64,000 bases of DNA from Crocinitomicaceae bacterium (GTDB lineage Bacteria > Bacteroidota > Bacteroidia > Flavobacteriales_D > Crocinitomicaceae), in assembly GCA_021740085.1 (NCBI GenBank), contig JAIPAL010000001.1:124001-188000 (forward strand), written 5' to 3'. The position numbers and the translations under genes are program-made. Each line of letters opens with the position of its first letter. Within the stretch, counting starts at the first letter, position 1. This document shows, one piece after another, positions 28,702 to 55,874 of this stretch. The notes below the pieces were generated by a model. It worked only from the letters and a program-made list of their open reading frames with translations. It was not told the origin of the DNA and searched no databases.

Positions 28702-29925
28702 TTAGTTTTGATTACTGATTTCATCTAATAATTTTTCAGTAGCAATTTTGTAATTAATATATTCTTGCCCTGTTCCGGGACCACTAAATCCAGTGTGAAT
28801 CCTTCTTACAATTCCTTTTTTATCAATAATTATGGTGGTGGGAAAACTCATTATTTTAGATAAGGAGGAAAAAACCAACAAGGCTTCATCCGCACCTTTT
28901 TTACCTCCCAACAAAACAGTATAGGGCACTTTACATCGCTTAACAAACCCCTTTAATCGTGTAAGTTGTTCTTTTTTGTCTTTGCCATTTTCAAATGAAA
29001 CGGCAATAAATTCAATCCCACGCTCTTTGTAAAAAGCATGTATTTCTTTAAAATAATTTGTTTCATCTATACAATTTGGGCACCAAGATCCCATTATCTG
29101 AATGACAGCGCCTTTGTTTTTTTGAGGGACAAAATGAAACGGCTTTCCATTTAATTTTGTCGCATCAAAGCTAAATGGAGCGGTATTTATTAATTGGCTT
29201 AATGAATCAGGGTCTCTTAATGTTGCGTCCTCATTTCTTTTTCCTTGCCAATTTGTTTGATACGATTGCCCGCTATAAAAAACCCCATTTATCTCTTCAT
29301 TTTTGCCAAGATTAGCTACAAATTGATAGGCATGTACCCCATCAAAACATGACAAATAGAGCGCGTTGTTTTCATCCACATTTCCTGCTAAATAACGGTA
29401 ATCACCCGTTTCAGTCAGAAAAGTTCCACTTACCGAGTTGCCTACTTGATTAAAAACCCCAATGGCGTGTTCATCGCCATCTTTAAAAATAACATCCCAT
29501 CTCCCGCTGTAATTATAGGAAGGTAAGCCACGTACTAAAAAACGGCTTTCGTTACTTAAATAAGCCGTGAACGGAATGGTAACAGGTGCTACTTTGTTAT
29601 AATTAATCCATTCGCCACTTAATTGAATTCCATTGGGATTAAATTGGATGCGCAACTCCCCATCTATTGCTGGAAAGCGGTAACAAAAAAGGTCACCTAC
29701 TTTTTTTTTAGGTAGTAACTCAATTCTTTCAGCACCATTTAATATGATGAGCTTGGGTGCTTTTTTATCATAAGAAAGTTCGAATTCGAAGGGTAAATGT
29801 AATCGATCGTTTAAACTTATTTCGGCATGCCAAGCCCCTTCGGTCGGGAGTTTAAGTCCTTGCGAAAAGGTCACGCAGCAACCAAAAAAAACATAGACAA
29901 GAAAAATAGACACTAAATTTCGCAT
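28702..29925 (-). CDS. Exported TlpA/ResA-like thioredoxin-fold protein with N-terminal beta-rich domain
   Basis: The 407-residue protein has a signal peptide (about residues 1-22) and a beta-rich region of about 230 residues resembling the DUF4369-type or lipocalin-like N-terminal domains seen in Bacteroidota TlpA proteins. The C-terminal thioredoxin fold (about 255-400) has active site GSWCPNCIDE (CxxC) near residue 278 and the cis-Pro segment FPTTIIIDKKGIV near 365. It probably acts as a periplasmic thiol-disulfide oxidoreductase. The partner is unknown. The gene stands alone on the minus strand and faces the duplicated promoter region, so its start is part of copy A of the repeat. Confidence 0.82.
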   Translation of the reverse strand: MRNLVSIFLVYVFFGCCVTFSQGLKLPTEGAWHAEISLNDRLHLPFEFELSYDKKAPKLIILNGAERIELLPKKKVGDLFCYRFPAIDGELRIQFNPNGIQLSGEWINYNKVAPVTIPFTAYLSNESRFLVRGLPSYNYSGRWDVIFKDGDEHAIGVFNQVGNSVSGTFLTETGDYRYLAGNVDENNALYLSCFDGVHAYQFVANLGKNEEINGVFYSGQSYQTNWQGKRNEDATLRDPDSLSQLINTAPFSFDATKLNGKPFHFVPQKNKGAVIQIMGSWCPNCIDETNYFKEIHAFYKERGIEFIAVSFENGKDKKEQLTRLKGFVKRCKVPYTVLLGGKKGADEALLVFSSLSKIMSFPTTIIIDKKGIVRRIHTGFSGPGTGQEYINYKIATEKLLDEISNQN

Positions 29926-29940
29926 AAAAACCTTTCTTTT

Positions 29941-30003
29941 ACAAGGCGAAACTAATTATTTTTATGACAAATAAGTAATTCAAGTGCAACCTTTAAAACA
30001 GAA
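29941..30003 (+). repeat. Direct repeat copy A: duplicated divergent promoter and sigma-gene start
   Basis: These 63 bases match 31016-31078. The first 33 are identical (ACAAGGCGAAACTAATTATT...), 10 are divergent, and the last 20 are identical (GTGCAACCTTTAAAACAGAA). Weaker similarity continues upstream through the thioredoxin gene start (TTTCGCAT). The last 20 bases equal the first codons of the ECF sigma gene in copy B, but here the frame stops after a few codons. Copy A lies directly upstream of the thioredoxin gene. Confidence 0.9.
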
Positions 30004-30276
30004 GAAATGCTAATTAGGCCCAGAAGTTGATGGCCTTGACAGGGAAATTTCAGGGTAAAAAAAGTATCTAGCTCAAAAAAAATGTTTAATCAAGAGTCGC
30101 TCAAGAATAATTGGTGTGTTAAAACCAAAGTGAGGTGGCTGAATCCGGTCTTATTTATACCATTCCTTTGCTAGTTAATAATATAAAATTAACTTCGCTT
30201 TATTGCATCCATCATTTACACTTGATGGTTATTGTTCATAACGATAAGAAAAACTACAATTAATTAACTAAAAATT
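30004..30276. other. Non-coding segment between repeat copy A and the coiled-coil gene
   Basis: With copy A this makes a 351-base gap without a gene. I see no continuation of the sigma-factor frame after copy A. A promoter-like TTTG-N19-TAACTTCG (30167-30197) is near the 3' side, and a short inverted repeat CCATC/GATGG is at about 30208-30228. Nothing else is recognisable. Confidence 0.5.
30167..30197 (+). promoter_or_regulatory. Promoter TTTG-N19-TAACTTCG upstream of the coiled-coil gene
   Basis: TTTG at 30167-30170 and TAACTTCG at 30190-30197 are separated by exactly 19 bases. The -7 box has one mismatch (TTCG for TTTG), the same variant as the promoter at 24593. It predicts a leader of about 75 bases before ATG 30277. 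Confidence 0.5.
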
Positions 30277-30966
30277 ATGAAAAGTACCTTGGTAATCTTC
30301 TTTGTTTTTTTATCAATAGGGTTGTTCTCACAAACCAAAGATGAAAAAATTGAAAACTTAAAAAATAAAAAGGCCGCCCTTGAAATATTACTGGAGAGTG
30401 AAAAAGCATTAAACTCACAAAAATCGGCCGAAAACCAGCTTTTAACGAATGAAATAGCAGTGTTGAAACAAGAAATGAAAGAAAAGAAATTTACTATTAA
30501 TTCACTTTCAGATTCGATAACGGCCTTAAAAAAATCCCCAAATAATTCTTCGGAAGTTGCCATACAGACACTTCCCATAAAAAAAGCAATGTATTTAAAA
30601 AAACCGACAATCAAATCGAACCATATTCAAGATTACCTGGACCAATTTAAATTAATTCAGTCTTATGAGTATGTTGGTAAGCAGCAAGGAAATCCATCAC
30701 ACGACGCGACTACTGGTGAAGATCCCTACGCGAAATATACACAACGTTATGATATTTATGAAAAGGGAATTGTTTTATGGACTTTTTTAGAACATGAAGG
30801 CGCGCGTTATCAATTATTTATTCCAATGCTTTCAGTATACGAAGCGAAAAGCCTTGTACTAAATCTTTGCGAGAATATGGGCGGTTGTCTCGCCCCAGAT
30901 GAAGTAACTGTTACATTCACAGAGGGTAATGGCGGCGTTTTTGTTTCTTGGGGGGGAGGGTGCTGA
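30277..30966 (+). CDS. Exported coiled-coil protein of unknown function
   Basis: I do not recognise this family. The 229-residue product has a signal peptide (MKSTLVIFFVFLSIGLFSQ). A long charged region with heptad-like character follows, likely a coiled coil (about residues 22-85). A proline/lysine linker leads to a globular C-terminal domain of about 110 residues containing YEKGIVLWTFLEHEGARYQL and LNLCENMGGCLAPDEVTVTF. It ends in VSWGGGC, so three cysteines lie in the last 40 residues and may form disulfides. The gene sits between the two repeat copies, directly before the ECF sigma factor gene. That raises the possibility that it is a later insertion, or a target or modulator of that regulator; the sequence does not prove either. 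Confidence 0.7.
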   Translation: MKSTLVIFFVFLSIGLFSQTKDEKIENLKNKKAALEILLESEKALNSQKSAENQLLTNEIAVLKQEMKEKKFTINSLSDSITALKKSPNNSSEVAIQTLPIKKAMYLKKPTIKSNHIQDYLDQFKLIQSYEYVGKQQGNPSHDATTGEDPYAKYTQRYDIYEKGIVLWTFLEHEGARYQLFIPMLSVYEAKSLVLNLCENMGGCLAPDEVTVTFTEGNGGVFVSWGGGC

Positions 30967-31015
30967 AATCAAAAGCAATAAAAAACAGCGTAATTTTCGC
31001 ATACTTGCCTTTTTT

Positions 31016-31078
31016 ACAAGGCGAAACTAATTATTTTTATGACAAATACGCAAACTAGGTGCAACCTTTAAAACAGAA
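31016..31078 (+). repeat. Direct repeat copy B: promoter region and start of the ECF sigma gene
   Basis: This is the counterpart of 29941-30003 at an offset of 1075 bases. It contains TATTTTTA (31032-31039), a near -7 box, and ends in the first codons of the sigma gene. An upstream TTTCGCATA at about 30996 corresponds to the start codon region of the thioredoxin gene in copy A, although no such gene is present here. Confidence 0.9.
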
Positions 31079-31625
31079 TAAAAGTCTATTCGACCGAGCA
31101 ATGGATGACGTTGAATTGGTTAATGAATGTAAAAAAGGAAATCCTAAGGCTCAAAAAGCGTTATTTGACAAATTTACCCCAAAAATGTTTGTTGTTTGTT
31201 TGCGGTATTTAAAGCAAACAGATCAAGCGGAAGATGCTCTTCAAGATGGCATGATAAAGGTTTTTTCTAAAATAGCAGAGTTTAAAAATGAAGGGGCGTT
31301 GGAAGGGTGGATAAGGAGAATAATTGTAAATACTTGTTTGGATCAAATTAGAAAGAATTTAAAATTTCAAACAGATGTTTCTTTAGGTGATATAGAATAT
31401 AAATTAGAGCATAAAGAGTTTACAATTGAAAACATGATGGCGGAAGACTTGATGAAGATAATTCAAGCAATGCCTCAAGGATATAAGGTGGTTTTTAACC
31501 TTTTTGCTATAGAAGGATATTCTCACCAAGAAATAGCGGCTACTCTCGCGATAAGCGAAAGCACTTCAAAGTCGCAATATTTAAGGGCAAGGGCATACCT
31601 AAGAGATAGAATTGAAAAACGATAA
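31059..31625 (+). CDS. ECF-subfamily RNA polymerase sigma factor
   Basis: The 188-residue protein has sigma region 2 (about residues 18-85, with DKFTPKMFVVCLRYLKQTDQAEDALQDGMIKVF; the DQAEDALQD segment contacts core polymerase) and region 4 (about 130-185, with the helix-turn-helix GYSHQEIAATLAISESTSKS). There is no region 1.1 or 3, as expected for an ECF factor. The ORF-track GTG start at 31059 is kept tentatively; ATG 31101 (MDDVELVNECKKG) is also reasonable and gives 174 residues. The next gene, six bases later, encodes a membrane protein with an anti-sigma-like layout. The start lies inside repeat copy B. Confidence 0.9.
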   Translation: MQPLKQNKSLFDRAMDDVELVNECKKGNPKAQKALFDKFTPKMFVVCLRYLKQTDQAEDALQDGMIKVFSKIAEFKNEGALEGWIRRIIVNTCLDQIRKNLKFQTDVSLGDIEYKLEHKEFTIENMMAEDLMKIIQAMPQGYKVVFNLFAIEGYSHQEIAATLAISESTSKSQYLRARAYLRDRIEKR

Positions 31626-31631
31626 TACTAA

Positions 31632-32462
31632 ATGGAACAAAACGATCAAATAAAAGAATTTTTCCAGCAACGACTTTCGGATCATCAGGAAGTGGTAAGG
31701 CCAGAAATATGGGCGGCGGTTTCATCTGCGATAGCCACTCCTGTTTTGGTCACTACTGGTATAAGTATTCTTTCGAAAACGTTAATTGGATTGGGCATTG
31801 CCGCATCAGTTATTGTTTCTGCCTATTTGTTGTATTCTTCTGATGAAAAAGTTGTAAAAGCTCCCACTCAGCAAAAGCAGAAAGCGAAAGAAGTTCCATC
31901 TATTCCTAATGAGAATACGCTTGTTCCAATTGAAACGAAAAAGAACGCTATTCCGCTTGTAGTGCTAGAAAACAATGATTTATTAAGCAGTGAGAAAGTC
32001 GTTAATGATGTGAATGACCCACAGATAATTCCTTTTGAATCAGATCAACTTCCAAATACGGATCCTATGCAAGATATGGGAGAGAATGTATCTAATGACC
32101 CTGTTAAATCGAACAATGATTTCATTGTAATGCCACAAGTTGAGAACACAAATGAATCATCCCCTTCACCAGATACGGATCAAGAGTTGAAAGTTGTTTT
32201 GTCGAATGTATTTACCCCAAATGGAGATGGGACAAATGATTACTTATTTATTCAATCGGAAGGGCTGCAAGATTTTAGCGTCGTAATATTGAATCAAGCC
32301 AACAAAATTGTTTATCAGTCTACCGACTCAAAATTTAGTTGGGATGGTAAATTAGCAAGTGGTGACGATGCGCCCGCAGGCAACTATATTTATTTTGTAA
32401 CAGCAAAATCACCCACCGGAAAATCCATCCAACAATCTAGCACCTTGTTTATTCAACGTTAA
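31632..32462 (+). CDS. Anti-sigma-like single-pass protein with C-terminal T9SS type B (CHU_C/gliding) domain
   Basis: The 276-residue protein has a short cytoplasmic N-terminus (about 1-48, starting EQNDQIKEFFQQRLSDHQEV), one membrane helix (about 50-68) and a disordered acidic, proline/asparagine-rich periplasmic linker (about 70-185). It ends in a complete type B sorting domain beginning VFTPNGDGTNDYLFI, with FSWDGKLASGDDAPAGNYIY. Size and topology of the first half and position after an ECF sigma gene fit an anti-sigma factor, though I see no zinc-binding anti-sigma motif. Type B domains normally target surface proteins to T9SS and are removed. Here the domain is tethered to the inner membrane, which is unusual. 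A sensor role is inference. Confidence 0.75.
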   Translation: MEQNDQIKEFFQQRLSDHQEVVRPEIWAAVSSAIATPVLVTTGISILSKTLIGLGIAASVIVSAYLLYSSDEKVVKAPTQQKQKAKEVPSIPNENTLVPIETKKNAIPLVVLENNDLLSSEKVVNDVNDPQIIPFESDQLPNTDPMQDMGENVSNDPVKSNNDFIVMPQVENTNESSPSPDTDQELKVVLSNVFTPNGDGTNDYLFIQSEGLQDFSVVILNQANKIVYQSTDSKFSWDGKLASGDDAPAGNYIYFVTAKSPTGKSIQQSSTLFIQR

Positions 32463-54476: not shown

Positions 54477-55874
54477 ATGGATTTTTGGATTAAAGCCGCT
54501 CAGTTATTTTTGTCCCTGGCGATATTGGTAACATTACATGAATTAGGGCATTTTATTCCCGCCCGGTTGTTTAAGACGCGTATAGAAAAGTTTTACCTTT
54601 TCTTCAATCCTTGGTTTTCACTCTTTCGATATAAAAAAGTAAATGGTGTAAAAAAGACGGCTTGGTTTAAAAAAGAATCTCCTAAAGATTGGAAGCAAGA
54701 TGAATCTACCACTGAATGGGGCATTGGTTGGTTGCCTTTAGGTGGATACGTTAAGATAGCTGGAATGATCGATGAGTCGATGGATAAAGAGCAATTAGCG
54801 AAGCCAGTGGAGCAATGGGAGTTTAGGGCAAAAAAGACATGGCAACGCCTAATAATAATGGTTGGAGGAGTTACAGTAAACCTACTACTTGGCTTTCTAA
54901 TTTACATATTGGTTGTTTTCACTTGGGGTCAAACTGAATTAAATCCAAATAAGCTATCAAACGGGTTATCAATACACCCCTATTTAGCCAAGTATCATCT
55001 TGTGTCAGGGGACAAGGTTATTAGTATAGAAAACGAGCCATTAACGAATTTGGATGAATTAAATAAAGGAATTCTATTGCGTGACAAGCGAAATTTAGTT
55101 GTTCAACATGTAAATGGCAAAGTAGAAAAAATAAAATTGCCTGAAAATATTGACACAGAGTTATTCCAAGCAGGTGCTTTTCCTCCTTTTGGACTTAGAT
55201 CAAAATCAAACATCGTCGAATCAGTTGTGAAAAAAAGTCCGGCGGAAAAAGCGGGGTTAAAAAAGAGCGATGTAATACTTTCTGTTAATGGCCACGAAAT
55301 AATTTTCTTTGATGATTTCCAAGCTTCACTTTATGAGGCTAAGGGAAAATCCGCGAATATTATTGTTAAACGAGCAAATGACACCTTAGAAATTAAATCC
55401 GCCATTAGACCGGACGGAACAATTGGTTTCCAAAGCAATGTTAAAATTATAGTTGATTCGTTGGCTATATCAACTATAAAGTATTCCTTTCTAAAAAGCA
55501 TTTCTGTTGGCTTTACTTATGGTTCCAACACCTTATCGGATTATATTTCTCAATTTAAGTTCGTGTTTACTAAAAAAGGAGCCACGTCAATTGGTGGTTT
55601 TGCGGCCATTGGAAACATGTTTCCAGCTACTTGGGATTGGCAAATATTTTGGTTGAACACAGCATTACTTTCAATTATTTTAGCCTTTATGAATATCCTA
55701 CCAATTCCTGCTTTGGATGGTGGTCACGTTGTTTTTCTTTTATATGAAATGATAACGGGAAAGGAAGCCCCACAAAAAGTATTAGAGGTAGCCCAATACA
55801 TTGGAATCATTTTATTACTTGGACTCATGGTCTACGCTAATGGAAATGATTTAGTAAAATGGTTATTCCCATAA
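54477..55874 (+). CDS. rseP: Site-2 intramembrane metalloprotease RseP
   Basis: RseP-type proteases cut anti-sigma factors and signal peptides within the inner membrane. The 465-residue protein has the zinc motif LVTLHELGHFIPARL (HExxH near residue 22) and a long cytoplasmic insert. One or two PDZ domains follow (about 130-300; SPAEKAGLKKSDVILSVNGH). The second zinc-site motif is NILPIPALDGGHVVFLLYEMITG near residue 410. Length is typical for Bacteroidota. It has a candidate promoter 17 bases upstream. It is a candidate to process anti-sigma proteins such as the one encoded at 31.6 kb, but nothing in the sequence shows this. Confidence 0.93.
   Translation: MDFWIKAAQLFLSLAILVTLHELGHFIPARLFKTRIEKFYLFFNPWFSLFRYKKVNGVKKTAWFKKESPKDWKQDESTTEWGIGWLPLGGYVKIAGMIDESMDKEQLAKPVEQWEFRAKKTWQRLIIMVGGVTVNLLLGFLIYILVVFTWGQTELNPNKLSNGLSIHPYLAKYHLVSGDKVISIENEPLTNLDELNKGILLRDKRNLVVQHVNGKVEKIKLPENIDTELFQAGAFPPFGLRSKSNIVESVVKKSPAEKAGLKKSDVILSVNGHEIIFFDDFQASLYEAKGKSANIIVKRANDTLEIKSAIRPDGTIGFQSNVKIIVDSLAISTIKYSFLKSISVGFTYGSNTLSDYISQFKFVFTKKGATSIGGFAAIGNMFPATWDWQIFWLNTALLSIILAFMNILPIPALDGGHVVFLLYEMITGKEAPQKVLEVAQYIGIILLLGLMVYANGNDLVKWLFP

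Follow-up and report, generated by a model that had tools for sequence, protein, structure and literature searches.

A conserved ECF sigma factor and putative anti-sigma factor with a type B sorting-domain homologue suggest a tie between T9SS cargo production and secretion in Bacteroidota

We describe a pair of adjacent genes encoding an ECF sigma factor and a membrane protein that very probably holds that sigma factor inactive, that is, an anti-sigma factor, and whose far end is a homologue of the T9SS type B (CHU_C) sorting domain. The pair lies in a 64-kb window of a Crocinitomicaceae genome (the whole stretch of DNA analyzed here; all bare coordinates are positions within it), and its sigma/anti-sigma layout is a conserved system. 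Judged by the genes that carry its promoter motif, the sigma factor seems to activate genes whose products bear a type B tag. This suggests that the cell couples its synthesis of secreted proteins to the condition of the secretion system. How Bacteroidota match T9SS cargo production to the secretion machine is poorly understood, and the pair provides a tangible candidate that is conserved, comes with a defined promoter and predicted targets, and points to residues of interest (W27 and L15, and the lost RWG and Gly). If true, this would be export-coupled gene control conserved through an order of Bacteroidota.

Layout of the gene pair

The sigma factor gene (31101-31625, plus strand) encodes 174 aa from a conserved ATG. 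A sequence-only reading of this DNA had placed an ECF sigma gene ahead of the membrane protein; the gene is real (Pfam Sigma70_r2, 4e-14; r4_2, 3e-13), but its start had to be corrected. The longest ORF opens at a GTG at 31059, on the edge of a conserved promoter, and orthologue alignment moves the start to the ATG at 31101. Every NCBIfam equivalog listed for the sigma factor fell below its cutoff.

The second gene (31632-32462, plus strand) encodes an anti-sigma factor of 276 aa with a periplasmic CHU_C-like domain. Its parts, all on the plus strand, are a predicted cytoplasmic anti-sigma module (31641-31736) with helices at about residues 4-16 and 24-35 and L15 and W27 invariant in the alignment; a single transmembrane segment at residues 44-62 (31761-31817; Kyte-Doolittle 2.01), similarly positioned in all family members; a tether at residues 63-187 (31818-32192), predicted from its low pLDDT to be disordered and periplasmic; and the sorting-domain homologue at residues 188-276 (32193-32459). 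The C-terminus matches Pfam PF13585 (CHU_C) over residues 190-264 (E=3.3e-15; 56 bits against a 27-bit cutoff) and TIGR04131 above its cutoff (E=1.2e-9). An AlphaFold2 model built with 38 homologues has N-terminal helices at residues 4-16 and 24-34 (pLDDT 52-58 without the sigma factor), pLDDT below 50 for nearly all of residues 31-182, and a C-terminal domain at 92-95. The ORF, the Pfam and NCBIfam matches, hydropathy and pLDDT thus bear out the layout first proposed, with an N-terminus, one membrane segment, a disordered linker and a type B domain after an ECF sigma gene. From transmembrane segment to CHU_C the length is 120-163 aa in most members and 208-225 aa in the long members found in other families, whose alignment reveals a PKD-like insertion.

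From hydropathy in 38 members, one transmembrane helix probably divides a cytoplasmic from a periplasmic part. The protein could alternatively be ordinary exported cargo, its hydrophobic stretch a cleaved signal peptide and the sigma gene an unrelated neighbor; the signal-peptide objection was already raised when the layout was proposed. Cargo would have a type B domain, as this protein does, and an AxA-like stretch follows the hydrophobic segment in 17 of the 38 members. However, in each of the 38 homologues the hydrophobic segment begins between residues 43 and 58 (median 49), behind a conserved domain of more than 40 residues; by hydropathy, the segment at 44-62 in the window protein is therefore unlikely to be the N-terminal cleavable signal peptide of type B cargo. 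The same module also sits beside sigma genes across the phylum, the RWG motif and C-terminal Gly of cargo have been lost, and the gap between the two genes, 6 bp in the window, stays between -29 and +34 bp throughout the loci surveyed. We consider it very improbable that the protein is ordinary cargo.

Distribution of the pair

Full-length homologues were found in 24 of the 36 genus relatives sampled, with split or partial matches in most others, and the pair is also present in other families of the order. An order-wide search with a profile of the N-terminal module matched 112 of 150 genomes and 50 of 56 genera. From this search we drew 28 order loci, some in genomes sampled earlier. The sigma gene, the CHU_C end and the promoter were kept in 28/28 and a transmembrane segment above threshold in 26/28. 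Given this retention and the homologues in two-thirds of the genus relatives, the layout is not a chance arrangement.

Across the phylum, the N-terminal module profile alone matched 77 of 393 genomes. An ECF sigma gene lay directly upstream in each of the 30 loci fetched, and the C-termini of these proteins vary, many of them resembling outer-membrane barrels on visual inspection of their length and terminal sequence.

A protein 92% identical to the window protein, in the same gene order, occurs in locus L009, which is titled a Chryseobacterium gleum MAG; that species label looks wrong.

Evidence for an anti-sigma role

No anti-sigma match to the N-terminus was found in Pfam or NCBIfam. The gene lies next to an ECF sigma gene and is conserved together with it, as an anti-sigma gene should be (28/28 in the order, 30/30 in the phylum), and the ECF sigma neighbors of all 30 phylum-wide loci, together with barrel-type ends like those of Dma factors, leave the anti-sigma role well supported.

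For modeling, the two adjacent genes were read through their in-frame stops to fuse the sigma factor to anti-sigma residues 1-76, a device that carries no claim of read-through. The fusion model reached pTM 0.70, with the second anti-sigma helix at pLDDT 91 (versus about 52 without sigma) and the first at 71-84. The three-residue joint between the proteins, and an alignment that differs from that of the unfused model, could bias the fusion toward contact. The fusion model is closer to sigma factors in complex with an anti-sigma factor than to RNAP-bound ones: Foldseek gave an rmsd of 6.5-6.9 to the sigma factor of SigW/RsiW, 7.8 to CnrH/CnrY, and 23-28 to RNAP-bound sigma factors in most matches. 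In CnrY/CnrH (class II, PDB 4cxf) two short helices likewise hold an ECF sigma factor, and the fusion, as a structure model, resembles that sigma factor; the periplasmic part and the signal differ. The earlier suggestion that the N-terminus is an anti-sigma module is therefore upheld by the sigma neighbors, by two-helix docking in the fusion model and by an architecture of the Dma type (PMC13088901).

As described in PMC13088901, which cites Pardue 2024, Dma anti-sigma factors have an N-terminal sigma-binding module, a single transmembrane helix, a long disordered tether and a neighboring ECF sigma gene, and the window family shares all four, its sigma-binding module being a predicted one. The N-terminal module is also shared with barrel-type members, since its profile retrieves barrel-like ECF neighbors; the likeness to BT Dma1 is one of architecture. 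Dma proteins end in an outer-membrane beta-barrel, whereas in the window family that place is taken by a type B CHU_C-like domain, to which some families add a PKD-like insert. The Dma work reports vesiculation and PUL effects, whereas the predicted targets of the window family are type B cargo. The protein would work in the manner of a Dma factor, with the inner half built alike. Because the barrel is missing, we call the system Dma-like rather than Dma, and it is apparently an undescribed, T9SS-linked variant of Dma-type anti-sigma factors; literature text searches (PMC, partial coverage) turned up no paper listing that describes an anti-sigma protein bearing such a sorting domain. The Dma class would thereby be widened, with one sigma-binding module and tether carrying interchangeable outer-envelope sensors.

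Divergence of the CHU_C domain from cargo

We compared the C-terminal domains of 38 anti-sigma proteins with 25 cargo domains from these genomes using FastTree. The anti-sigma domains form one clade apart from cargo (support 0.72). They retain the N-x-F-T-P-N-G-D-G-x-N-D and W-D-G core. The RWG motif, nearly invariant in cargo (R 25/25, W 24/25, G 25/25), is missing from them, and W is not among the common residues at this place in the 38 sequences; the C-terminal Gly is present in 25/25 cargo domains versus 2/38 anti-sigma domains. Fold matches of the C-terminal domain include PorZ (5m11). The domain had been described as a complete type B sorting domain. That holds for its fold, and it has the CHU_C/TIGR04131 C-terminus of type B cargo, but its sequence is not cargo-like.

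Secretion in F. johnsoniae depends on each of five conserved motifs of the type B domain (PMC12618676), and PorP/SprF-like barrels handle type B cargo (PMC9143113). With RWG and the C-terminal Gly lost, the domain looks like a mimic of the cargo signal, and we infer from sequence that it may dock without being exported.

The domain might instead be an Ig-like module that serves as an anchor or sensor at the outer membrane or cell wall, making the protein a general envelope sensor that never contacts the T9SS. Such a role would suit a CHU_C copy without two cargo motifs and an N-terminal module that is also joined to unrelated periplasmic ends, and Dma1 and Dma2 control vesiculation (PMC13088901). 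It sits poorly with retention of the N-x-F-T-P-N-G-D-G-x-N-D and W-D-G core, however, and would make it a coincidence that the predicted targets have the same type of domain. We regard an envelope sensor of this kind as quite unlikely.

The sigma promoter and its predicted targets

An autoregulatory ECF promoter is predicted upstream of the sigma gene at 31060-31086 (plus strand), with the form TGCAACCTTT-N14-GTC, a -35-like element at 31060-31069 and a -10-like GTC at 31084-31086. It matches the conserved motif, TGCAAC-N18-GTC in short form, exactly. TGCAACYTTT-N14-GTC lies ahead of almost every one of 39 aligned sigma gene orthologues, and TGCAAC-N17..19-GTC ahead of the sigma gene in all 28 loci of a second set from across the order. 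A promoter kept upstream of sigma genes in this way is as expected for autoregulation.

The promoter region also has a diverged duplicate in the window (29937-30039, plus strand), a 103-nt direct repeat of 82% at a spacing of 1075, with the -10 changed to GCT and the promoter-like copy at 29985. The duplicated 103-bp stretches (29937-31114) flank an ORF for a secreted, coiled-coil-like protein of 229 aa (30277-30966). Since the sigma gene directly adjoins a divergent TlpA-like gene in loci L009-L011, the arrangement at 29937-31114 has the look of an insertion that arose in the lineage of the window. The TlpA-like gene (28702-29925; secreted, with a thioredoxin-like end) adjoins the pair in a large part of the genus; a start similar to its own also occurs in another family (L049).

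Across 41 genus genomes the motif occurred 153 times, versus 42 for a reversed control. In other genera and families it was barely enriched (83 versus 65 in the control), although in two other genera it is present at anchor-L-like genes. By position, the retrievable genus sites fell upstream of ORFs (68, a few of these ORFs being antisense), at sigma genes (9), at small-RNA-like units with terminators (19), within genes (17) or in no class (7). Among the 68 ORFs the largest cluster was type B cargo (23 members), followed by a LuxR-type regulator and a small secreted protein (11 each) and smaller groups including an OMP and a lipoprotein. Every full-length representative found of the cargo cluster carries a CTD. 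When 20 target genes chosen among long, incomplete ORFs were extended, 19 had a Pfam CHU_C end and the remaining one a type A tail; the whole window genome has 40 Pfam CHU_C matches. No T9SS machinery gene was seen among the predicted targets. The link to the T9SS that had been proposed from the sorting domain is supported by promoter-linked genes dominated by type B cargo.

In the window genome itself, the strict motif occurs at the sigma gene and at one unrelated site only. A relaxed motif, TGCAACTAAAATAAATAAACTCTAGTC, lies upstream of an anchor-L-like CHU_C gene (L266), TGCAAT-N18-GTC upstream of an 805-aa CHU_C gene (L261), and TGCAAC-N17-GTC upstream of an operon of a small gene and a CHU_C gene (L273). 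A two-mismatch search returned 114 sites versus 186 in the control, so these three candidate cargo sites rest on position and on similarity to the targets of relatives.

The LuxR-type HTH regulator, of 214-222 aa, has the sigma promoter at 11 genus sites (L097, L125, L128, L143 and L157 among them) and may form a second regulatory tier. Tandem arrays of short transcripts, each unit with a sigma promoter and an intrinsic terminator, occur in some species of the genus only (L138, L140, L136, L095, L104, L117, L168). In L136, L138 and L140 as many as five copies of the promoter are spaced about 110-315 bp apart. Rfam yielded no credible family for the arrays, and a search with the complement of the stretch they share recovered nothing but the arrays and no target.

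A proposed docking model for control of type B cargo

We favor, as somewhat the likelier account, a switch in which an ECF sigma/anti-sigma pair with a docking CHU_C domain controls type B cargo. The pairing, the module, the membrane segment, the tether, the domain divergence, the promoter and the predicted targets come from sequence or modeling; the docking partner, the signal sensed and the sign of the response are what we infer. The anti-sigma protein would hold the sigma factor in the cytoplasm via its short two-helix module, and one membrane crossing followed by a tether of roughly 130 aa would position the CHU_C-like domain either in the periplasm or by the outer membrane. There the modified type B signal probably docks, without export, on the T9SS or on a shuttle barrel of the PorP/SprF type. 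The amount of type B cargo waiting would alter docking and bring about loss of the anti-sigma protein, likely by regulated proteolysis. SprA and an M50 (RseP-type) protease are encoded in the genome, the protease gene in the same window (54507-55823; G000:C85:178507-179823). Once free, the sigma factor would transcribe the operon that encodes it along with type B cargo genes and, in certain species, small RNAs. We prefer the sign in which free T9SS capacity activates the switch and the supply of cargo rises.

More tentatively, as a possibility that falls a little short of even, we propose that a non-exportable mimic of the type B signal is the docking sensor and that free T9SS capacity sets type B cargo transcription, in a FlgM-like but membrane-anchored system conserved through the order. 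FlgM is a soluble protein whose export frees sigma-28. On this view each is an anti-sigma factor with a signal for export by a particular system, and the partner sigma factor governs the late substrates of that system. FlgM, however, is soluble and exported, whereas the window protein is membrane-anchored and its signal looks export-defective.

The sign could also be that of an alarm for backlog, in which unexported type B cargo displaces or mimics the CHU_C domain, proteolysis activates the sigma factor, and small RNAs then lower envelope protein synthesis. Sigma-E offers a precedent, with dependent small RNAs and with misfolded porins acting on RseA/sigma-E. The small-RNA arrays, with their sigma promoters and terminators, recall the sigma-E-dependent small RNAs and argue for some stress logic, and an RseP-type protease is encoded; P. 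gingivalis PorA, moreover, has been proposed to signal reduced T9SS operation (PMC7712824). But cargo genes among the predicted targets would worsen a backlog and argue against a pure alarm, no T9SS machinery gene was seen among those targets, and the arrays, whose shared stretch gave no target, are present in some species only. We find a backlog alarm unlikely.

Two described T9SS circuits invite comparison. The PorA/PorXY-SigP pathway of P. gingivalis, the analogy first drawn for this protein, also has a protein with a T9SS C-terminal domain acting on a T9SS-related sigma pathway (PMC7712824). The analogy is not supported in the form first drawn: PorA is a cell-surface protein reported in Porphyromonas only, has no anti-sigma part, and affects T9SS machinery genes from a position above a two-component system and SigP (PMC7712824), whereas the targets predicted here are cargo, with no machinery gene identified. 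PorA/SigP is a distant functional parallel. In Flavobacterium psychrophilum, the SM6 promoters are an ECF-type set that includes a sigma/anti-sigma pair, a small RNA and the T9SS genes gldN and porU (PMC9723704). Their targets are T9SS machinery, unlike those predicted here, and the likeness noted is in the make-up of the promoter set (PMC9723704).

Related sigma/anti-sigma loci

A second sigma/anti-sigma pair occurs in the same genomes (L251, 1268-3093; L252, 1106-2811), with anti-sigma proteins of 418 and 377 aa. No Pfam or NCBIfam match was found for this pair. A two-sequence search gave a weak match to the CTD profile, and the anti-sigma protein has a degenerate CTD-like end (WDG..AYIWKV..GTIVR). 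In locus L091 (523-1632), an anti-sigma-like gene encodes an N-terminus with two copies of the module (DDLFRDKL..LW and DQLFQQGL..LW).
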